Source: Chloroflexi bacterium GWB2_49_20
GTDB taxonomy: Bacteria; Chloroflexota; Anaerolineae; Anaerolineales; Villigracilaceae
Length of the DNA stretch: 64,000 bases
Assembly: GCA_001796335.1 (NCBI GenBank)
Contig: MGMF01000014.1
Span: 71,982 to 135,981, forward strand
Direction: 5' to 3'
A program made the translations under genes and the position numbers. Shown one piece after another: positions 34,084 to 59,627 of the stretch (position 1 is its first letter; the number at the start of each line of letters is the position of its first letter). Below the pieces are notes generated by a model. That model worked only from the letters and a program-made list of their open reading frames with translations, was not told the DNA's origin and ran no database searches.

Positions 34084-34434
34084 ATGCCAAACACAGTTAG
34101 ATTACAACGTATTGCCGACCGCATCCGCGAGGTTCTCTCCGAAATGTTGATCAAGGAGATCAGTGACCCACGCCTTGAACAGGTTACCATCACGGATGTC
34201 ACCGTGGATCGCGAGTTGGCTTATGCAAATATTTTTGTGTCTTGCATTGAAGGTTCCGTGCGCAGCAAGGAGATCCTGGTTGGCTTGAAACATGCCAGCG
34301 GTTTTTTGCGCCGCGAGCTATCCAACCGCATTGATCTGCGCGCTTTTCCACGCCTGCGCTTTCATTGGGACCCAACGCCCGAGAACGCCGATCACATCGA
34401 AAAACTTTTATACTCACTGAAAAAAGATGAATGA
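34084..34434 (+). CDS. rbfA: ribosome-binding factor A
   Basis: 116 aa KH-fold protein needed for 16S rRNA 5'-end maturation. Seen: RIADRIREVLSEMLIKEISDPRL, VTITDVTVDRELAYANIFVS and RFHWDPTPENADHIEKLL. It lies 30 nt after infB and overlaps the next gene by 8 nt. Confidence 0.93.
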   Translation: MPNTVRLQRIADRIREVLSEMLIKEISDPRLEQVTITDVTVDRELAYANIFVSCIEGSVRSKEILVGLKHASGFLRRELSNRIDLRAFPRLRFHWDPTPENADHIEKLLYSLKKDE

Positions 34435-35383
34435 CCTGGACAAATCCATTGCAGGGCGCCTGCAAACTGCCAATAATATCCTGATCGTCTCGCATGTCCG
34501 CCCGGATGGGGATGCCATCGGCTCACTCCTGGGACTCGGGTTGGCGCTTCAAGCTATCGGTAAACAGGTACAGATGGTGCTGTCAGACGGTGTTCCTTCC
34601 AGTTTCAGGCACTTGCCCGGCAGTGACCAGGTTTTACGCGTTCAAAAGACTCCGCCCGATTTGAGTATCGTGGTGGACTGTTCAGATCTTAAACGAGTTG
34701 GCAAAGCCCTGGATAAGTATGGAGCGCCGGACATTGTCGTGGATCATCACTTTACCAACGGAGCATTTGGAACGCTCAACCTGATCGAACCGGAATCCCC
34801 GGCAACTGCCTCGGTCCTGTGTCAGCATATGCCAGCCTGGGGATTAACCATTACATCCGAGGTGGCTGCCAACCTGCTGACCGGACTGATCACCGATACC
34901 CTTGGATTTAGGACTCTCAACACCACGCCACTATCCCTACGCCAGGCTGCTGACCTGATGGAACTGGGTGCAAACCTGAACAGCCTGTACACCCTGGGAT
35001 TGGTACGCCGCACCCTGACCGCAGCACGCTACTGGGGAGCCGGGTTGGGCAACCTGCAATATGAAGGCGGGATTGTCTGGACAGCCCTGACCCTGGCTGA
35101 CCGCGCCAGGAGCGGCTATTCAGGCAACGATGACGCTGACTTGATCAACGTGGTTTCTTCCATTGCTGAAGGTCTGGTAAGCATAATATTTGTTGAACAA
35201 GCGAATGGCACAGTCAAAATCTCCTGGCGTACACAGGACCCCAACCTGGATGTGTCACAAGTTGCAGTCAAGTTTAACGGTGGAGGCCACAAAGCTGCAG
35301 CAGGAGCAGATATACCCGGCAACCTTGCCGAGATCAAGAAACGAGTGCTTGCAGAAACAGGCAAAATCTTGAAAAAGAGTTAG
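34427..35383 (+). CDS. nrnA: DHH-family nanoRNase / pAp phosphatase
   Basis: 318 aa of the DHH-DHHA1 family. Seen: SHVRPDGDAIGSLLGLGLAL (motif I), VVDCSD (II), VVDHHFTN (III, the DHH), SVLCQ and GLITDTLGF (IV), and the C-terminal DHHA1 FNGGGHKAAAGA. It probably degrades oligoribonucleotides and dephosphorylates pAp, like B. subtilis NrnA; DHH proteins of this type can also act on cyclic dinucleotide products such as pApA. The latter is notable given the DarA-like proteins at 51 and 55 kb. Overlaps rbfA. Confidence 0.9.
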   Translation: MNDLDKSIAGRLQTANNILIVSHVRPDGDAIGSLLGLGLALQAIGKQVQMVLSDGVPSSFRHLPGSDQVLRVQKTPPDLSIVVDCSDLKRVGKALDKYGAPDIVVDHHFTNGAFGTLNLIEPESPATASVLCQHMPAWGLTITSEVAANLLTGLITDTLGFRTLNTTPLSLRQAADLMELGANLNSLYTLGLVRRTLTAARYWGAGLGNLQYEGGIVWTALTLADRARSGYSGNDDADLINVVSSIAEGLVSIIFVEQANGTVKISWRTQDPNLDVSQVAVKFNGGGHKAAAGADIPGNLAEIKKRVLAETGKILKKS

Positions 35384-50731: not shown

Positions 50732-50995
50732 TTAGATCTGGGTATAGTTTTCCACCGGCACCACAAACACAGTGGTCTGCGTCTCATCGCTATCAGACGG
50801 TGCAGTCTTTGCGCGCATCACCTGAATGGCAACCTCAACGCGGTCATCTTCCACACCCACCAATAATGTAACCACACCGCGACGCAGCCAGCCGCCGGTG
50901 GAAGCGATCCGTGTAACCCGAAAATTATCAACGGTCAGAGCCTGAGTTACGTTGTCCGCATCTGAATCCCGCAAAATGGCAATGATCATTTTCAT
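50732..50995 (-). CDS. short DarA/PstA-like (PII-like) signal protein
   Basis: 87 aa of the cyclic-di-AMP receptor DarA (DUF970) type. Seen: NFRVTRIASTGGWLRRG (residues 24-40) and TLLVGVED, the nucleotide-binding segments of DarA, and a C-terminal TTVFVVPVENYTQI strand. It lacks the long B-loop and the GGAT strand of B. subtilis DarA. GAGGAG precedes the ATG. It starts 1 nt after the stop of the long-form gene, so they form a pair. Ligand binding is inferred from family resemblance only. Confidence 0.8.
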   Translation of the reverse strand: MKMIIAILRDSDADNVTQALTVDNFRVTRIASTGGWLRRGVVTLLVGVEDDRVEVAIQVMRAKTAPSDSDETQTTVFVVPVENYTQI

Positions 50996-50996
50996 C

Positions 50997-51335
50997 TTAA
51001 AACTCCTCAAATCGATCCACCGGTAAGGTGAAGATCGTTGCCCCACCCACGGTGATGGGTATGGGGGAAGGTAGCGGCAGGGGAGAGCCTTCCAAAGGTA
51101 TGGCAAGATATTCCACACGTTGATGACAGGATTTGCTCAGGGCTTTGATGACGGTCTCTTCCTGGTCATCGGGCAATCCGACTACCAGCGTGGCATTACG
51201 TCTTCCCAGGAAACCCCCACTGCTGACCATGTGTATGGCTGGGACATCCATCTCTTTAAGAGTATGCAAGGCCAGATCCAGGTCTTGGTCCTGAACCACA
51301 GCCATCATCAGTCGGCGAATATTGGCATATTTCAT
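50997..51335 (-). CDS. long DarA/PstA-like (PII-like) signal protein
   Basis: 112 aa. It has a ferredoxin-like fold with VSSGGFLGRRNATLVVGLPD (residues 38-57) and a C-terminal PIPITVGGATIFTLPVDRFE, which closely matches the end of B. subtilis DarA. The nearest relative in the window is the C-terminal domain of the antiporter at 55.2 kb, which is clearly homologous along its whole length. ATG at 51335, with GGAG upstream; a GTG two codons earlier is possible. Paired with the short form. Confidence 0.8.
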   Translation of the reverse strand: MKYANIRRLMMAVVQDQDLDLALHTLKEMDVPAIHMVSSGGFLGRRNATLVVGLPDDQEETVIKALSKSCHQRVEYLAIPLEGSPLPLPSPIPITVGGATIFTLPVDRFEEF

Positions 51336-51393
51336 AGTCACAACTCCGTTGTTGTGGAGACAAGGGGGATGGTCACTTATGGAACTATCCGGC

Positions 51394-51457: not shown

Positions 51458-52564
51458 TTATTCCAATGAGCCTTCGTTTACATAACGAGTTAATTCGCAT
51501 ACGCTCAAAGCGCTGATGCCCAGCTTGTCCACCGTCCGGCCGCGTTTCCAGTAATCGGTGCGATGGACGATGCAGGCCAGGCGGATGATACTATCCATGC
51601 CTCGAACCGAGACTCCAAAACGTTCCCCCAGCGATGCAATGGGGACCATACTCATCGGCACATCCTCGAAAATATACCGGTGGCTGAGAGTGGCAGGAGC
51701 TTTGATGCCATAATAACCTGGCTGGTTGTGAATGGCCTCATGCAAATCTTCTCCAGTTGTATCATAAGCCATTTTGAGCCATTCCAAACCGGTTCGGGCG
51801 CGAATCCCAAGAGATGACGCCACAGTCACACGTTCGCGGTCCAACACTTCCAAAACACGCGCAACAGAAGGGGTTACTCCATCAATATAAAATTGATAAT
51901 CGCCATGCGTGGCTTCGATCCATCCGGCATTCAGGAGGGTTAAGGCTGGATGAAAGATCGCACCCATATTATTCATCCCGGTGTTCAGTACATTTACACC
52001 ATCTATGTATTGTGGGTAGATCGGATTTATGGCATCCAATACCCGCTCGTTGCGAATAGCAGGGAGGGCAGCCAGTGGAACCGCTTCTTTGATCCGGAAG
52101 ATGCGCGCCTGGGCCGGGCCGTCCGAGCGGCTGGCATAAATAAAGGTTTCTGCTTCTGCAATGGTGACATCCGCCGTACAGCCCTCAGCTCGAAGTACTT
52201 TGGCAAATTCCAGCGCGCCACCTGTTCGCCCCGGATGCAGAATGATGATCTGTCCATTCCTGAGATGCCTGGTTGCAGTTTTTGCAATATCAGCATGCGC
52301 TGAGGATGGCACAACAACCATGATCACCTGGGCTTTCTTTAGCGCCTCGCCCATATCCGATGTCACATTGGCAAGCTTGCCAAATCCATGTGGGCCATCT
52401 TCAGCGCTTTCCAACTCTATACCGCCGCGCTTTTTTATCACGCTGATATGGTCGAAGGTGCGGTTATAAAGCGTGACCTTAAGACCCATAAGTGCGAGGT
52501 GAGCTGCCATAGCCTTACCGCCATGACCGGCGCCAATGACCGTATATTTCTCGGGAGTATTCAT
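51458..52564 (-). CDS. NAD/NADP octopine/nopaline dehydrogenase-family protein
   Basis: 368 aa. The N-terminal Rossmann domain has VIGAGHGGKAMAAHLALMG and PSSAHADIAK. The C-terminal helical domain includes NTGMNNMGAIFHPALTLLNAG, which matches the opine dehydrogenase catalytic region (N...H), and EDVPMSMVPIASLGE. Family members reductively couple an amino acid with a 2-oxo acid or reduce related keto/imino compounds. The ATG overlaps the stop of the B12-binding gene by 4 nt, so the two probably act in one pathway. Substrate unknown. Confidence 0.85.
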   Translation of the reverse strand: MNTPEKYTVIGAGHGGKAMAAHLALMGLKVTLYNRTFDHISVIKKRGGIELESAEDGPHGFGKLANVTSDMGEALKKAQVIMVVVPSSAHADIAKTATRHLRNGQIIILHPGRTGGALEFAKVLRAEGCTADVTIAEAETFIYASRSDGPAQARIFRIKEAVPLAALPAIRNERVLDAINPIYPQYIDGVNVLNTGMNNMGAIFHPALTLLNAGWIEATHGDYQFYIDGVTPSVARVLEVLDRERVTVASSLGIRARTGLEWLKMAYDTTGEDLHEAIHNQPGYYGIKAPATLSHRYIFEDVPMSMVPIASLGERFGVSVRGMDSIIRLACIVHRTDYWKRGRTVDKLGISALSVCELTRYVNEGSLE

Positions 52565-54198
52565 TCAAACTCCTTTCTGATTATCGCCAAGCGATCTTTT
52601 TCGGATAACGGGCGACCTGTAGGATCAACTGCAAGACACATCCCATTGATAACCTGGGTACGGATGGCGCCGCACCCAAAGCGATTATTCTTTAATTGGG
52701 GCGCATCCAGGATTCCAGTTTTGACAGCTGCCGCAAGGGTGGCGGCGTCAGTCCAGGGATCGTCAACCTCCGGTGCAGCTAGTAAACGAATGGCTTCCAG
52801 CGTGATGCGAGCCTCAGCCACCAGTTCGTCCCTGCGGGCCTGCAGGCGCGGGTCAGTTCCCGGGTCCGGGGCACCGCGCACCGAGTTCTCAATCACCCGG
52901 CGGGTTATTTTACTGGCTATGATCACATCATCTGCAGCGGCAGCATGGTCGGCTTCTGTATGCCCGACGATATGAATAATATCCGGTTTAAGCCCCATCT
53001 GCAAATAAACGCTGGCAGCCAGGTGACCACGTGCCGCTTCAGGATCCAACGGGTAACTGAGCAAGCCGGTACGGGTCTGTTTCCAAATATTATATGCCAG
53101 CCCAGACAAGGGTGTAACCAGTTCCAGGATAGCCAGCATTTTAGCCAAATCCATCGAATCCGATAAACCCGACGGACTGTTGAACATCATCTGGGCGATG
53201 TAATCCCGCACACCGAATTTCCTGGCATTGTAAGCCGAAAGGAATGCTGACACGATGAAAACAACATCCGGGGCGTCACGCATGCCCCAGTGATGGGGCT
53301 CATTAAGCTCGACAGGGATGTTGCGTTCTCCATACCAGGCCATCACCTTTTGATGCTCGCGGATTGAGCCTTCCAGGTCCCAGGGGCCGCGCCCATCCAT
53401 CTGGTTGAACCAGAAAAGCGGGATCGCGCACCAGGCATTGTGGATGGTTTCGGTTAGAACTTGCGCATATTGGATGAAGTCATCCGTACCGGAATATGAG
53501 CGCATAAGTGGATAGTTCCCGCGACGGCTGGCTAAGAAAAGTTTTCTGAAATCTTCCTGTGTCCTGACCGGGACACCCCCCGCCCCTTTGCGACGCGGGT
53601 CTTGCCTTTCGGGGTGGAAGAAGTTCTCCTGTGCATCCTGGTCAGTCCCCAACGAGATCAGGTCGAGAGCCTGAGAGTCAGCAATTTTGGCGATTCCATC
53701 CAATGTAGCTTCCATCGTCGGCAAACCAAAGTGGTGGCGCAATATGGGGTAAGGGCGCTTCCACTGGATGCGCTCGATGGTCGTCTGTGGGAAGCTGGTC
53801 CCGGTCAGATCTTCTGCAGGTTGACCCTTGAGCCAGGCCAGCACCTGCTCAGTGGACTCGTTGCCATCAAAGATCCGCTCGAAAAAGCCCAGGGATTTCA
53901 CTCGTTCGGCAACCGGTGGAGTACCGCCAAAGGCGAAGCGCACCCCGGCAACATGCAAGTCCGCAGCCTCCTCGGCGAACTGACCAAGCAACCGTTCTCC
54001 ATTCTCAGGCGTCAGGCGATAAGAGACGCCAACAAGATCTGCCTTCTCCTGCCGGGCAACTTCCAGCACCTGCCTGATCGGTACTGCCGGACCGATGAAT
54101 ACTGTCCGCCAACCAGCAGCCTCGGCCAACTGAAGGAAATTGGATATACCTGCCACATGGACACATTCACCCAGAGCGGCAGCCACGACTGTTTTCAT
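52561..54198 (-). CDS. cobalamin-binding protein with mutase-like TIM barrel
   Basis: 545 aa. Residues 1-125 form a B12-binding Rossmann-like domain: CVHVAGISNFLQLAEAAG has the His14 and Gly17 of the DxHxxG motif with Cys in place of Asp, followed by KADLVGVSYRLTPENG. The remainder (about 150-500) resembles the TIM barrel of AdoCbl-dependent glutamate-mutase-type or aminomutase enzymes, e.g. VELNEPHHWGMRDAPDVVF and MMFNSPSGLSDSMD. It begins at the ATG 54198, after AAGGAAGGA. The reaction is unknown; the coupled opine dehydrogenase-like gene suggests an amino acid or keto acid substrate. Confidence 0.75.
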   Translation of the reverse strand: MKTVVAAALGECVHVAGISNFLQLAEAAGWRTVFIGPAVPIRQVLEVARQEKADLVGVSYRLTPENGERLLGQFAEEAADLHVAGVRFAFGGTPPVAERVKSLGFFERIFDGNESTEQVLAWLKGQPAEDLTGTSFPQTTIERIQWKRPYPILRHHFGLPTMEATLDGIAKIADSQALDLISLGTDQDAQENFFHPERQDPRRKGAGGVPVRTQEDFRKLFLASRRGNYPLMRSYSGTDDFIQYAQVLTETIHNAWCAIPLFWFNQMDGRGPWDLEGSIREHQKVMAWYGERNIPVELNEPHHWGMRDAPDVVFIVSAFLSAYNARKFGVRDYIAQMMFNSPSGLSDSMDLAKMLAILELVTPLSGLAYNIWKQTRTGLLSYPLDPEAARGHLAASVYLQMGLKPDIIHIVGHTEADHAAAADDVIIASKITRRVIENSVRGAPDPGTDPRLQARRDELVAEARITLEAIRLLAAPEVDDPWTDAATLAAAVKTGILDAPQLKNNRFGCGAIRTQVINGMCLAVDPTGRPLSEKDRLAIIRKEFE

Positions 54199-54328
54199 AT
54201 TTATCAATCCTTCCTTCTGTTCCTCTGGCGAAATCCATTCTGCTCAACAAAATTATCCTTTTCCCCTCAACCCCAGGTATTGGATCAGATTACGAGGCTT
54301 CGAATGGGGGAACACACTCCTTCACTGG

Positions 54329-54817
54329 TCAAGCGGGATTCCTCACGGTGTAGAACGCGTGCGGATGGCTGTCTTGCAGCCGCTTGATCACATCATTTAA
54401 TTCCTTGCGGTTGATGACTGTGTAAATTACCTTTACTAAACCAGTGGCCCCGTGTGCATCGAAATGTGTGACCCCGTAACTGGCATCTTTGAGCGACTGG
54501 ATGAGAATATCCGTTTCTCCGACAACGATGGCCCGAACGATGAGATTTCCAATTGCCAGCCTGCTTTCGATGACCATGCCGACATAATTTCCGGCTGCGA
54601 AACCGGCTGCATAAGCCAGGAAACCTGCCAGGCTTGACACACTGCGCACCAACTGGCTGACAACCACGATCCAGATAAAGACTTCGACGAAACCCAGGAG
54701 TGGGGCCAGCATGCGCTTCCCTTTGTTAATGTATATGATACACAAGGTTCCCAGGGACACATCCACAATTCGGGCAAAGAAAACCAGAATGGGCAGGTAC
54801 CAGTTGATCTCATTCAT
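54329..54817 (-). CDS. UPF0316 (DUF5698/DUF2179) membrane protein
   Basis: 162 aa. Three hydrophobic segments in the first 90 residues (ILVFFARIVDVSLGTLCIIY, FIWIVVVSQLV) lead to a DUF2179 domain of ferredoxin-like type (IIV, SYGVTHFDAHGATG, VIYTVINRKELNDVI). It fits the UPF0316/YebE family, whose function is not established. It follows the second DarA-like pair by 68 nt on the same strand, and DUF2179 has a PII-like fold, so a signalling link is possible. Confidence 0.8.
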   Translation of the reverse strand: MNEINWYLPILVFFARIVDVSLGTLCIIYINKGKRMLAPLLGFVEVFIWIVVVSQLVRSVSSLAGFLAYAAGFAAGNYVGMVIESRLAIGNLIVRAIVVGETDILIQSLKDASYGVTHFDAHGATGLVKVIYTVINRKELNDVIKRLQDSHPHAFYTVRNPA

Positions 54818-54871: not shown

Positions 54872-54901
54872 TTTATTGTACCATCTTACAATTGTTCAAA
54901 T
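54872..54901. repeat. 30-nt sequence shared with 51394-51423
   Basis: Includes the 3' end of the short DarA-like gene and 14 nt after its stop. The match at 51394 lies upstream of the other DarA-like pair. Confidence 0.6.
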
Positions 54902-55152
54902 TTATCCACTTTGAGTACAAAGATGGTAACTTTCTTAAGGCTCGGGTCAATGGAAGGAGCACAATGCTCACGCACCATTTGCATGGCCCTCTCCACTTTT
55001 CCTGCTTCAACACCCATCAAAAGAGTGGAACTGCCCCGGCGCAAAAAGCCACCTGTGGAGGCAATACGTGTGACGCGAAAACCTTCATTCAATAGTGCCT
55101 TTATCAGGGAGTCGCTTTCTGTATCGATCACTACAATAATGATCAACTTCAT
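54886..55152 (-). CDS. short DarA/PstA-like (PII-like) signal protein, second copy
   Basis: 88 aa, close relative of the 50.7-kb short form: GFRVTRIASTGGFLRRG at residues 24-40, STLLMGVEAG and a TIFVLKVDKFEQL end. It starts 4 nt after the antiporter stop. It probably works with the antiporter's C-terminal domain, either as a hetero-oligomer or by sharing a ligand. Ligand inferred, not shown. Confidence 0.8.
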   Translation of the reverse strand: MKLIIIVVIDTESDSLIKALLNEGFRVTRIASTGGFLRRGSSTLLMGVEAGKVERAMQMVREHCAPSIDPSLKKVTIFVLKVDKFEQL

Positions 55153-55156
55153 GCTA

Positions 55157-57163
55157 TCAGAATTCGTCATAAGATTCAACCTCAAACGTAAAGATGGTTG
55201 CTCCTCCAATTGTGATCGGGATGGGTGCCGAAAGAGGCAGTGGCAAATTTTTCATGGGTTGGGAAAGATACTCCAACCTTTTCTTACAACTATTTTGCAG
55301 GACGCGTACAGCGGCTGCTTCTCTGCCTTCCTGGATACCTATCAATAAGGTCACATTGCGGCGGCTGAGAAAGCCTCCTGTGCTGGGCAGGCGGGCAACC
55401 GAAAAACCCAGATTGCTCAACCCACTGGCTGCGTTCTCAAAATCCTGCTCCTGAATGACAACAGCCATTAAACGCTGCACTCTCAAAGTTGAAATACCAC
55501 CACGTAAAAGTTCAGGCCAGTTCAAATGTTGTTCGGTTAGAGCAGTGTCGATTTCATTAACCAGGTACGTATAAGTCTCATCCGAGATAACACCATCCCG
55601 CTGTAGTCCGCTTAATGCGCTGCGCTGTGCCCGTAAAGTCTCACGCCGGGCAGTATCCAATTCCTCCGCTTCCACAGTCGGGTCGGATGCGATCACTTCA
55701 CGGACTGCATCCACCAACATGCTGTTTTGCCTCTCCAGCACTTTGGATAATATCTGCCAGGTATGTTCAGAGATGATCCCCTGACGGCTCATGCGTTGGA
55801 GATAATCATACGCTGCCCGTCCAGCCACAAAACGGGCATGACGGCGTTCATATTCATCCTGCATGGGTGTTTTCTGGATCAATTTTAGACGTTTAACCAG
55901 GCCATCCATTGAAAAACCTTGCACCAGCAGTGTGAATAATACGACCCCAAACGCCATGGATTGAAGCAGAAAACGCTGCTCCCCCACCGCGCTGACGCTC
56001 GGAATACTCAAGGCCAGGGCCAGGGTGATGGCGCCCCGCAAACCACCCCAGAACATCACATGCTTCCATTTGGTGGGAATGCCGCGTCCAAAAATTGAAA
56101 AACCGTAGATGCTGACTGCCCGGGCTAATAAAACAGCCAGGATGGAGATGGCAATGGCCTGCCAGTTGCTGAACAATAAATGCAGATCAATGGTCATCCC
56201 GATCAACAAAAAAATGATCGAGTTGGCCACAAAGGCCAGGTATTCCCAGAAATTAAAGACCACCAAACGCGTGGTGGGCGACATGCCTTTCGGACCGACA
56301 TTCCCATTCACGATCCCGGCAGCCACCACAGCCAGAACACCGCTGAAGTGTAATTGTTCCGCCACAAGGTACGAGCCAAACGCCAATACAGTCGTGAGCG
56401 TGGTCTCAACCAAAGGATCATCAATCCGGCTGATCAATTGGGATACAATAATTCCCAGCACAACTCCTACAATTGCGCCGCCACCTGCCACCCGGATGAA
56501 ATTGGCGATTCCGGTCAACAGGTTGACTTGCTCACCTTCAAAACCATGCAAGCCAGTGACACCGGCAAAAGCCAGCATAATATAAAACATAACGATGGCG
56601 GTACCATCGTTAAACAAGCTCTCGCCTTCCAGCAAAACTTGCAATCGTTTGGGAGCCCCCAGGCTGCGAAAGAGAGCCACCACCGACACCGGATCGGTGG
56701 CAGACACCAGCGCACCAAATACCATCGCCACAGGAAGTTGGATGATGGCAACCGTTGGGATGATCACTGAACCCCAGGATACCATGACACCTACCAGAAC
56801 AGTGGTAATAACCACACCTGGTATGGCGAATAAAGTGATCAACCAGAAATCCCGTTGGAGGTCATCACGCTTAATATGAAAAGCTGCTTCGAAAACCAGA
56901 GGAGGCACCAGTAAACCCAGTATGATCTCAGGCAGTATAGGATTTTTGGAAATATCCAGCAGTTGCTTTAGATATATAGTCGTATCACCTGTAAAGAGCA
57001 CCGGAGCAAAAAAGGCCATTACCAACCCGATCAACACCAGTCCGACGGTGTAAGGCAGGCGAAGGTGTCTGGCTGCCACTGCCACGCCTGAAGAAATAAT
57101 CAGCAAAACCAATACAGAAGTTATTAAAAGTGTAATCACCGGTAAGTTTTCAACAAGATTCAT
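55157..57163 (-). CDS. CPA1-family Na+/H+ antiporter fused to a DarA-like (c-di-AMP receptor-like) domain
   Basis: 668 aa. Residues 1-410 form a CPA1 (NhaP/NHE-like) antiporter with about 12 helices and the motifs SATDPVSVVALF and LLEGESLFNDGTAIV, containing the ion-binding Asp pair. Residues 415-555 are a cytoplasmic, charged, mainly helical region. Residues 560-668 form a DarA-like domain (RLPSTGGFLSRRNVTLLIG and PIPITIGGATIFTFEVESYD), homologous to the free-standing 112-aa protein at 51 kb. The simplest reading is a cation/proton exchanger gated by a nucleotide such as c-di-AMP, followed by a short DarA-like partner gene. Confidence 0.85.
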   Translation of the reverse strand: MNLVENLPVITLLITSVLVLLIISSGVAVAARHLRLPYTVGLVLIGLVMAFFAPVLFTGDTTIYLKQLLDISKNPILPEIILGLLVPPLVFEAAFHIKRDDLQRDFWLITLFAIPGVVITTVLVGVMVSWGSVIIPTVAIIQLPVAMVFGALVSATDPVSVVALFRSLGAPKRLQVLLEGESLFNDGTAIVMFYIMLAFAGVTGLHGFEGEQVNLLTGIANFIRVAGGGAIVGVVLGIIVSQLISRIDDPLVETTLTTVLAFGSYLVAEQLHFSGVLAVVAAGIVNGNVGPKGMSPTTRLVVFNFWEYLAFVANSIIFLLIGMTIDLHLLFSNWQAIAISILAVLLARAVSIYGFSIFGRGIPTKWKHVMFWGGLRGAITLALALSIPSVSAVGEQRFLLQSMAFGVVLFTLLVQGFSMDGLVKRLKLIQKTPMQDEYERRHARFVAGRAAYDYLQRMSRQGIISEHTWQILSKVLERQNSMLVDAVREVIASDPTVEAEELDTARRETLRAQRSALSGLQRDGVISDETYTYLVNEIDTALTEQHLNWPELLRGGISTLRVQRLMAVVIQEQDFENAASGLSNLGFSVARLPSTGGFLSRRNVTLLIGIQEGREAAAVRVLQNSCKKRLEYLSQPMKNLPLPLSAPIPITIGGATIFTFEVESYDEF

Positions 57164-57251: not shown

Positions 57252-59627
57252 CTATGAATTGGATACCAGGCAGGCAGCCGGGTCGGTCACCTGGACGCTT
57301 TGTCCATCCGGGAAGGTGACATCGGTGATCCCGGCCTGGCGTATCACAATTAAACCTCTAAATTTTATGGTTACCGGCCAGGGAAATGGATTGGTACCCT
57401 CCAGGCGGACACAGCGGGGAGAAATGATCTGCACACCCAAGGTTTTCAGGAACAATCCCAGGGGAGCCAATCCGCGCAAACTATTACGCTCACCCTGCCC
57501 TGTTCCGCTTTTCGCAAGGTAGCTGTTAAAGAATACGCCCTGTTGCTTGAGGCTGCGAATGGCAGTTTCCATCAAGCGACCCACCAGCTGGCTCGCTTCA
57601 GAACGCCGGCCATATTCCAGCAGCCCTTCACCAATTAGTTGGTTCCAGGGAAACTGTACTTCAAGGTTTTCCTCCTTCATCTCCTGGTTGGCAGTAAGGC
57701 TTCTTGTTGAGAAACCAGCTGCATGCCAGAAGCTGTGCGGTTCGAATAATTTTTGCTGGATCAGTGCAGTTGCTTTTCCTTCATCCGTTATGCCAGCCCA
57801 CAGGGGCAGGAAACCAGTCTGGTCCTCCTGTGTATAATCCAGGCTACGAACAACCAGATTGTCAATTCGTTGCAGTCCGGTCACTTCGATCTCTTCCAAG
57901 GATGAATATAACTGGCGGCTGGTGGCAGTGGCAACTTCAGCATTCCAACGAAAATCCTTGCGCTCCAAACGTTCAATCACAGAGCCTGTTGAAGATTGTC
58001 CATGGATGCGCACGTCCATTCCACGGGTTGTTTGGCTGGCTGCCCAAACCCGGATCAGGAGACGCACGGGTTGTTTAAATACACTCTTCAACTTAAATAT
58101 GCCCGGGCCTGAGTGGGTCAGCACCGGCCTTCCGTTCACGCTTAAATGAGTGTCCCGGTCCCGATATTGGTAAAACGCTGATTTCTTATTCCAACATGCA
58201 TCCACTGCAGACCACAAAACCTGAGCTTGTGCATTCAATGCATCCGCATCCCCGGGAAGATCCAGTTCATGAGCCATGGAACCCAGGCTGCGATACTCCT
58301 GCCACAGGCAGGCAGCCAGCGCCGGGCTCTCGAAATAGCGGATATCGGCGCCCTGATCCCCCCTTTGCATACTATTGAAGGCAGGGTTTTCCTCAAAACC
58401 GGTTTGCAGCGGGTGATCCCACTCTGGGAAACCATCTCCGTCCCGGTCATGGGATGGGTCGGACCATGATTTAATGAAAGCCAGCAGACCGGGAAACACT
58501 TCCTGTAGAAATTCTTTGTCCCCAGTCTGCCGGTAGGTGTTCCAGGCCAGATCCGCCAAGTGAGGGGCTGCCAGCCAGCAACCGCGTTGACCAGCCAATC
58601 CGGGGCGGCTATCGACAAAACCTTTCTCATCCTGTGTTGAAAGAAAATTGCGCACCAGACCTGCTGCCAGACCCGGGGCACCCGGTAGCATACTGGCCAG
58701 GTAAATTGCATCCAGGGCTGTTTGCCCACTCCACAGGGAAGCATGGTCACGACCATCCCCACGTAATGAATACCCGTGGTCTGGCTGGCGCGCCAGCACG
58801 AAAGAAGGCTGCGGCAGGTGTTCACTGCTTTTGAAGAATAAGCGCAAGGCGGTGGTCTGGCTGAATGCCAGGACTGCATCCCAATCCGGATCACCTGTTT
58901 CAACATCCACAGTTTGGGATGCATTGACCAGCATGAGTCGGGCATGTTCTGCATCCCAGGGACGCGCAGCCGTGCGGCGGGCCAGGTCAAAGGACGCCTG
59001 CACCTCAGGCAGTGCTGCCTGCACCCAGGTGAATTTCCGGGAAGCCAAGGGCGCCAGTTTGATGTCCAGTAACAGGGAAGAATAGGGTCCAGGTCCGTGC
59101 ACCGGGCCGCCTGTCAAAAACACAACCGGCTCCAGGTCAGAAGTCTTCCCTGCCAACACATTAACCGATTGGATCTTGGTTGGTGCCAGGCTTTGCCCAT
59201 CCATTGGCGTCAGGAATCCGCACACCTCCATTTGTAAATTTAAAGTGTCTGTGGTCTGGTTGCGAAAGGTCAGGCGGCTGGCAAGAGTCTGGGACGAGGG
59301 CAGCCAATACTCCGCCCGGGCGTCCAGCCCCTGGAAGGGTGAAAAAGCAAATTCCAAAAAGTTGGGGTAAAAATGTTGCAAACGCGGGGGAGAAAAAAAT
59401 TTGTCGGGGTTGGTGACCTTTTTTCCATCCAAAGTAAAACTTATAAAGATTCGCATGGTGCGCGCCCGCAGGCCGTATGTGGTGCGCACACCCATTACGG
59501 CAGTATCACCAATGCCAGGTTCCATTTCCCAGGTATGGTCATTGATATAATCAGGTTCGCAAAAGCGAAAATCAGCGGATAAAACCAGCGTGCATGGGTC
59601 GCCCGCCTTGAGAGACCAGGTTCGCAT
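57252..59627 (-). CDS. (alpha/alpha)6-barrel glycoside hydrolase, MGH1/GH63-like
   Basis: 791 aa, no signal peptide seen. The N-terminal third is beta-rich (a supersandwich-like domain). From about residue 270 come helical-barrel repeats: LWSGQTALDAIYLASMLPGA, WNTYRQTGDKEFLQEVFPGL, HDRDGDGFPEWDHPLQTGF, WQEYRSLG. The DRDGDGFPEWDHP segment is typical of GH63/MGH1-like and amylo-alpha-1,6-glucosidase-like enzymes. It probably cleaves an intracellular alpha-linked saccharide such as mannosylglycerate or glucosylglycerate. Substrate uncertain. Confidence 0.7.
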   Translation of the reverse strand: MRTWSLKAGDPCTLVLSADFRFCEPDYINDHTWEMEPGIGDTAVMGVRTTYGLRARTMRIFISFTLDGKKVTNPDKFFSPPRLQHFYPNFLEFAFSPFQGLDARAEYWLPSSQTLASRLTFRNQTTDTLNLQMEVCGFLTPMDGQSLAPTKIQSVNVLAGKTSDLEPVVFLTGGPVHGPGPYSSLLLDIKLAPLASRKFTWVQAALPEVQASFDLARRTAARPWDAEHARLMLVNASQTVDVETGDPDWDAVLAFSQTTALRLFFKSSEHLPQPSFVLARQPDHGYSLRGDGRDHASLWSGQTALDAIYLASMLPGAPGLAAGLVRNFLSTQDEKGFVDSRPGLAGQRGCWLAAPHLADLAWNTYRQTGDKEFLQEVFPGLLAFIKSWSDPSHDRDGDGFPEWDHPLQTGFEENPAFNSMQRGDQGADIRYFESPALAACLWQEYRSLGSMAHELDLPGDADALNAQAQVLWSAVDACWNKKSAFYQYRDRDTHLSVNGRPVLTHSGPGIFKLKSVFKQPVRLLIRVWAASQTTRGMDVRIHGQSSTGSVIERLERKDFRWNAEVATATSRQLYSSLEEIEVTGLQRIDNLVVRSLDYTQEDQTGFLPLWAGITDEGKATALIQQKLFEPHSFWHAAGFSTRSLTANQEMKEENLEVQFPWNQLIGEGLLEYGRRSEASQLVGRLMETAIRSLKQQGVFFNSYLAKSGTGQGERNSLRGLAPLGLFLKTLGVQIISPRCVRLEGTNPFPWPVTIKFRGLIVIRQAGITDVTFPDGQSVQVTDPAACLVSNS

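Follow-up and report, generated by a model that had tools for sequence, protein, structure and literature searches.

A 64,000-nucleotide (nt) stretch of the genome of Chloroflexi bacterium GWB2_49_20 (contig MGMF01000014.1, positions 71,982 to 135,981; hereafter the window) encodes a Na+/H+ antiporter of the CPA1 family that ends in a CdAMP_rec domain (PF06153), the domain of the cyclic di-AMP (c-di-AMP)-binding PII-like proteins DarA and PstA of Bacillota. A gene for a short CdAMP_rec protein begins 4 nt after the antiporter stop codon, and a free pair of CdAMP_rec genes, one long and one short, is found about 3.5 kb from it (Table 1). Long domains or proteins are referred to as L and short ones as S. 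Both L-S pairs together make up all four CdAMP_rec matches in the 3.37-Mb genome.

The antiporter fusion and its partner gene

An earlier note, made from the DNA letters alone, had proposed an antiporter ending in a DarA-like domain and, 4 nt behind it, an 88-amino acid (aa) DarA-like gene. Both are borne out. The fused L scores 63.4 bits against PF06153 (curated cut-off 27) and matches Listeria monocytogenes PstA (4rww, E 9.1e-15, phmmer), and the signatures TGGFLSRRN, IGGATIFTF and RIASTGGFLRRG are all present as that note quoted them. The S of the fused pair scores 79.3 bits, covering profile positions 1-65 only, and matches DarA (4rle, E 8.4e-16). All four window proteins score below the cut-off of 140 bits of the DarA equivalog model NF058593 (71.4, 74.8, 80.8 and 76.4 bits). 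The DarA fold was recovered with AlphaFold2, which models the fused L as a ferredoxin-like arrangement (block predicted local distance difference test (pLDDT) values of 71-92) and S as beta-alpha-beta-beta-alpha-beta, also ferredoxin-like (mean pLDDT 89). When the S model is used for a fold search, PstA, DarA and a Pediococcus relative account for the top 16 PDB matches.

The membrane domain carries the motifs TDP (156-158), NDG (185-187) and GGLRG (373-377), and scores 308.4 bits against TIGR00831 (a_cpa1; cut-off 279.6), which places it in CPA1. N185, D186, D157, P158 and R376 are invariant in an alignment of 50 sequences, six of them unfused antiporters; the ND pair and the Arg are presumably the transport core. 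Since the closest structures to the model of the whole antiporter are mainly SLC9C1, several with cAMP or cGMP, and also SOS1, NHE and PaNhaP, the membrane part resembles a standard CPA1 exchanger, and the novelty would sit in the tail. Between the two domains the model has a linker with helices at 433-460, 466-493, 495-522, 528-543 and 549-557, which is conserved across 15 fused sequences. Above cut-off, Pfam gives PF00999 and PF06153 only; no TrkA_C/RCK_C domain is present in the fused antiporter, and the four TrkA_C matches of the genome lie elsewhere. The fused antiporter is the only PF00999 gene of the genome.

Table 1. Positions of the fused antiporter, the CdAMP_rec genes and associated genes (window coordinates, except for CdaA).
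Feature	Position	Strand	Extent	Basis or remark
Fused antiporter gene, whole	55157-57163	-	668 aa	
Na_H_Exchanger (CPA1) membrane domain	55895-57100	-	residues 22-423	Pfam PF00999, E 8.9e-68
Helical linker	55484-55894	-	residues about 424-560	AlphaFold2
Fused long CdAMP_rec domain (L)	55166-55471	-	residues 565-666	PF06153, E 2.6e-17
Short CdAMP_rec protein (S) of the fused pair	54886-55152	-	88 aa, ATG at 55152	PF06153, E 3.1e-22
Free long CdAMP_rec protein (L)	50997-51341	-	114 aa from GTG, start uncertain	PF06153, E 2.9e-19, 69.7 bits
Free short CdAMP_rec protein (S)	50732-50995	-	87 aa	PF06153, E 3e-21 (with one extra start residue), 76.1 bits
MGH1-like glycoside hydrolase, upstream of antiporter	57252-59627	-		PF22422, E 2.1e-20
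NrnA-like DHH-DHHA1 phosphoesterase	34427-35383	+		DHHA1 match; about 16 kb from the free pair
CdaA	G000:C25:43270-43632			TIGR00159

A pattern scan of genome contigs from 84,980 species returned 72 loci, and in 43 of these the antiporter and the CdAMP_rec domain are found in a single open reading frame (ORF). All 43 are in records titled Chloroflexota, Anaerolineae or members thereof. A frameshift or misassembly, considered in the earlier note as a possible origin of the fusion, is ruled out by the recurrence of the same single ORF in these related loci. Three further loci fall outside the 43: L064 (split over two frames), L092 (212-aa ORF only) and L091 (only the final 269 residues, at the end of a contig); L064 and L091 are labelled as fused in the L tree, and L064 is also among the 31 fused pairs of the half-site count below. 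Among the 43, L083 (496-4932) has a tandem of two antiporter-L fusions, with an S gene behind each of them. ORFs of 312-361 aa with N-terminal extensions before CdAMP_rec (L118, L120 and L121) are stop-to-stop frames with possible upstream read-through and were set aside; in L118 and L121, the two tested, no Pfam domain precedes CdAMP_rec.

Within the family of the window, CdAMP_rec is present in at least 77 of 80 genomes and the fusion in at least 16. Among the matches listed for 400 genomes of the phylum, a full-length match to linker plus domain is seen in six, all of the same family. In the tree of L domains, a quick tree from few columns, five changes between fused and free are needed, and starred branches force three of these; G148 has a fused L that is nested among 26 free L in one clade (99, starred). 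Thus, the fusion appears to have been gained more than once, or undone.

L and S travel together in this family: exactly two CdAMP_rec matches, among those listed, are seen in 62 of the 80 genomes. In a second set of loci, S is directly downstream of L on the same strand for 39 L, and none is found in the fetched stretch for L168 and L170. All ten loci examined from the same order outside the family have an L-S pair, and all ten examined outside the order have a single CdAMP_rec protein. S adjoins the fused L in 29 of the 43 fused loci. The rule that S is always beside L is rejected by the other 14 and by L168 and L170. In 12 of these 14 genomes (all except those of L081 and L089) an S elsewhere was searched for and found in every case, and the whole CdAMP_rec complement of five of them, G723-G727 (completeness not given), is a single fused L, with Val28, and a single S.

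Two CdAMP_rec domains are joined in a single chain of 199-266 aa on three Chloroflexota contigs (L107:2205-3002, L108:4001-4597 and L110:3932-4708, the last running to the locus end), and both halves of these chains keep Thr28 and Asn41. A very divergent L-S pair, with an L end branch of 2.59, is seen in L033 (1172-1821), in a genome (G335) that also has a fused pair.

Complementary half-sites in L and S

In Staphylococcus aureus PstA, c-di-AMP is described as sitting between two monomers, one contributing Arg26, Thr28, Gly47 and Gln108 (face A) and the other Phe36, Leu37, Asn41 and Phe99 (face B) (PMC4316997). The same report gives binding too weak for a dissociation constant with T28A and with GGFL-AAAA, 9.6 uM for N41A versus 0.37 uM, and unaffected binding in lysates after deletion of the B-loop (residues 71-87). 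For L. monocytogenes PstA, the B-loop residue Gly94 is reported to touch the ligand as well, and Arg26 to be dispensable (PMC4475381). The CdAMP_rec domains were aligned and numbered as in PstA by way of an unpaired Chloroflexota relative; Thr28 served as the score for face A, and Gly34, Gly35, Phe36 and Asn41 as that for face B.

The fused L keeps face B (GGFL, Asn41 and the B-loop with Gly94) and has lost face A (Ser26, Ala28 and Glu108). Its S keeps face A (Arg26, Thr28 and Gln at the 108 position), with the B-loop deleted and Ser for Asn41. The free pair repeats this division: L keeps face B and has lost face A (Pro26, Ile28, Glu108), and S keeps Arg26, Thr28 and Gln108, with Val for Asn41, Trp for Phe36 and the B-loop deleted. 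None of the four proteins has a complete two-faced site (Thr28, GGFL, Asn41) in one chain, and in both pairs the mixed site, face A of S with face B of L, is the only complete one. The suggestion in the earlier note that a DarA fold is built into the transporter therefore stands as regards fusion, conservation and fold, and fails as regards a complete receptor in the fused domain, where Arg26 and Thr28 of face A are replaced by Ser and Ala and position 108 is Glu. As the half missing from the fused L is present in S, the L-S pair would be the functional unit.

Among 61 adjacent pairs, the mixed site of S face A and L face B is complete in 51, versus 18 for L with L, 18 for S with S, and 3 for the converse mixed site (L face A, S face B). 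In the second set, of 39 family pairs, the same four sites are complete in 39, 14, 2 and 0 (four pairs, from L162, L196 and both of L199, repeat genomes of the first set). The pattern is weaker in other families of the order, where ten pairs give 5, 1, 2 and 0. By residue, in the aligned rows, Thr28 is kept in 68/69 S versus 36/79 L, and Asn41 in 71/79 L versus 24/69 S. The 69 S rows leave out two L106 proteins that have a short B-loop but a GGAT motif. Both residues are kept in all 18 full-length relatives without an adjacent S. Position 108 in the first set is Glu in 15/15 fused L and Gln in 13/14 S partners. That L always lacks Thr28 is rejected, given the 36 that keep it, and in the 14 fused L without an adjacent S position 28 is Thr in seven and Val in seven. 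On the trees, at least 6 steps are needed for Thr28 in L and at least 10 for Asn41 in S (the S tree including the two L106 proteins); the losses are thus more than one inherited event, yet not 61 independent ones.

The diadenylate cyclase on which the proposal of the earlier note depends is present once in the genome, as a CdaA type (TIGR00159, 216.7 bits, cut-off 188.8), and a diadenylate cyclase is found in 77 of the 80 family genomes.

Transporters and hydrolases next to L

Neighbouring genes were surveyed in 60 loci from 60 family genomes of the CdAMP_rec list, two fused (G302, known beforehand as such, and G315) and 58 unfused; G179 was known beforehand to have adjacent antiporter sequence. 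Ten seeds were used to identify neighbours by similarity, and only those families are named here. A transporter is found within 400 nt upstream of L on the same strand in 20 of the 58 unfused loci. The nearest recognised upstream gene is PF00999 in 13 (two CPA2-seeded, two CPA1 and nine other PF00999), CitMHS in five (with L185, whose frames overlap by 250 nt, entered by hand) and NhaA in two. An MGH1-like glycoside hydrolase is nearest in 31, and seven loci have none of these genes within 700 nt, three of these having the hydrolase further up. Gauged by the one PF00999 gene in the whole window genome, the proximity of transporters to L is far from chance. A PF00999-like antiporter is also upstream of L at one locus from another family of the order (L232).

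The order hydrolase, antiporter, L, S on one strand, not always adjacent, is seen in L176, L209 and L212, and the window has hydrolase, antiporter-L, S. This shared order indicates that one position in the cluster is filled by transporters of different families, of which the CPA1 version was joined to L in the lineage of the window. MGH1-like hydrolases take their name from mannosylglycerate hydrolase, and a role in compatible-solute breakdown, which is a guess, would fit osmoregulation.

In nine loci (L203, L221, L189, L213, L215, L173, L167, L183 and L184), a small P-II-like gene of about 115-120 aa, unlike CdAMP_rec, was seen by eye between the PF00999 antiporter and L. Two copies were compared with PF00543 (P-II, cut-off 25), one scoring above it (L183, 27.1 bits) and one below (L203, 21.2 bits). 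Such operons would hold three PII-like genes. Elsewhere in the class (L009), a full-length CdAMP_rec gene is found beside thymidylate kinase, the arrangement of Bacillota.

A putative split receptor and its alternatives

We favour, with a probability of roughly 0.55, a reading in which L and S form a heteromeric sensor of c-di-AMP, or of a related nucleotide, that gates antiporters and is covalently attached to one in the window protein. The C-terminal L of the antiporter and S would assemble into a PII-like ring with a ligand pocket between one S and one L, S supplying face A (Arg26, Thr28, Gly47, Gln108) and L supplying face B (the GGFL loop, Asn41, and the B-loop with Gly94, and Phe99). c-di-AMP made by CdaA would bind in this mixed pocket and order the T- and B-loops, and the ligand-bound ring would alter the load on the helical linker, such that Na+(K+)/H+ exchange follows the level of the messenger. 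CPA1-family exchangers are dimers; the two L of one antiporter dimer together with a single S would match the three subunits of a PII-like trimer. Unfused L-S pairs might act likewise on separate antiporters whose genes adjoin theirs. Direct support for this reading comes from the fusion, the fold, the pairing, the complementary residues, the cyclase and the antiporter neighbourhood; the mixed ring and its stoichiometry, c-di-AMP as the ligand, and the gating and its sign are what we infer. More tentatively, at somewhat short of even odds, the split-site heteromeric c-di-AMP receptor may be a plug-in regulator of CPA1, CPA2, NhaA and CitMHS-type antiporters that was joined to the CPA1 chain probably more than once.

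Several observations weigh against a heteromeric sensor. The AlphaFold2 structures are of monomers, not complexes. The pair counts are not independent, near-copies being included, and the mixed site is incomplete in 10 of the 61 pairs and in 5 of the 10 from related families. L alone is complete in 18 of the 61. Thr28, GGF and Asn41 are all present in S itself in 15 of the 31 fused pairs, where homotrimers of S could suffice. The Glu at position 108 of L is unusual for a site that binds phosphate, 14 of the 43 fused loci lack an adjacent S, and the commonest upstream neighbour of unfused L is the hydrolase.

The best placed of the alternatives, though unlikely, is that S is the sole nucleotide sensor, as a homotrimer, and that the fused L is a non-binding dock for ligand-loaded S, like AmtB for GlnK. 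The 15 fused pairs just mentioned would suit this, as would the retention of Thr28 in the S of 60 of the 61 pairs. Lack of a B-loop would not necessarily prevent binding by S, given the reported binding by PstA after B-loop deletion (PMC4316997). However, Asn41 has been lost from the S of both window pairs and from most S overall, and the face-B residues that L keeps, such as Asn41, would be needless for a mere dock.

Somewhat less probable still is a pair whose ligand is not c-di-AMP but a different nucleotide (ATP, ADP, AMP or another cyclic dinucleotide). PII-like folds bind several nucleotides, and the free S of the window weakly matches the P-II family PF00543 (18.9 bits, cut-off 25). In addition, Lys replaces Gly94 in most S and Glu is at position 108 in most L, both unlike PstA. 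On the other hand, the mixed site mostly retains the GGFL T-loop, Gly47, Thr28 and Asn41 seen in PstA, and the cyclase is nearly universal in the family genomes.

That L-S serves the MGH1-like hydrolase, with the antiporter merely sharing its operon, is improbable. The hydrolase is indeed upstream of L in those 31 unfused loci as well as of the fused antiporter of the window, but it is the antiporter to which L is covalently joined in 43 of 72 loci, no CdAMP_rec-hydrolase ORF is seen among the 60 surveyed loci, and several transporter families sit between hydrolase and L. Least probable of all is a degenerate remnant with a structural (oligomerisation) role only, as the loss of face A from the fused L might suggest, since a remnant would erode evenly while the T-loop and Asn41 are conserved across very divergent L, and S is present in each of the 12 searched genomes where it does not neighbour the fused L.

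The heteromeric sensor that we favour has relatives among known systems, and its ingredients (CdAMP_rec, CPA1 antiporters, control of antiporters by c-di-AMP) are known already. DarA/PstA (PF06153, NF058593) shares the fold, the GGFL T-loop and the residues of the inter-subunit site, and provides the best PDB matches of the window proteins by sequence and, for S, by fold. PstA is however a homotrimer, whereas the window has two diverged paralogues, an S without the B-loop and an L that is fused to a transporter. The receptor part of CpaA of S. aureus is an RCK_C domain, unlike the window antiporter, in which this domain is absent. CpaA is likewise a putative cation/proton antiporter and c-di-AMP receptor (PMC4686210). 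In Bacillus subtilis, loss of c-di-AMP was suppressed by an isolated mutation in NhaK, a cation/proton antiporter (PMC7857571), showing that antiport and c-di-AMP act on the same problem.

The sperm Na+/H+ exchanger SLC9C1 is eukaryotic, with a CNBD fold and a voltage sensor; it is likewise an exchanger with a C-terminal cyclic-nucleotide receptor, a likeness that does not imply a shared origin of the receptor domains. In GlnK-AmtB, a PII trimer acts on a membrane transporter, and mixed GlnB/GlnK heterotrimers are known; the window system differs in covalent attachment, in complementary half-sites and in having cation antiporters of several families as partners. In the open-access papers searched we found no antiporter with a built-in PII-like receptor, although InterPro architecture lists may hold the fusion uncommented, and neither a split receptor nor a DarA-like module linked to several antiporter families.

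Binding of c-di-AMP by PstA was reported in 2013 (cited in PMC4475381), and B. subtilis DarA is described in a 2021 article as having no known function (PMC7857571). If the plug-in reading is true, antiporters would be the first target class for a DarA-family protein. The window protein would also be a bacterial counterpart of the cAMP-regulated SLC9C1, and the L-S pair would be a clear case of half-site specialisation within a PII-like ring. An answer on DarA function is suggested for one lineage in three forms (antiporter fusion, antiporter operon and two-chain receptor), each amenable to testing with small soluble proteins.

Among other genes that may bear on c-di-AMP, the NrnA-like DHH protein of the window scores 98 bits against NF053633 (NrnA), below the cut-off of 350, and is a candidate for c-di-AMP/pApA turnover. 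The c-di-AMP riboswitch RF00379 has no match in the genome, with B. subtilis and Corynebacterium glutamicum controls positive, and is not required for the proposed sensor. In L005 (124-1362, minus strand), a 412-aa protein directly follows cdaA; by position we presume that it may be a CdaR/YbbR regulator. A 548-aa protein between the two CdAMP_rec pairs of the window (52561-54207, minus strand) has an N-terminal B12-binding domain and no further Pfam match, and directly downstream of the S of the fused pair (54329-54817, minus strand) is an apparently membrane-bound protein with DUF5698 and DUF2179.

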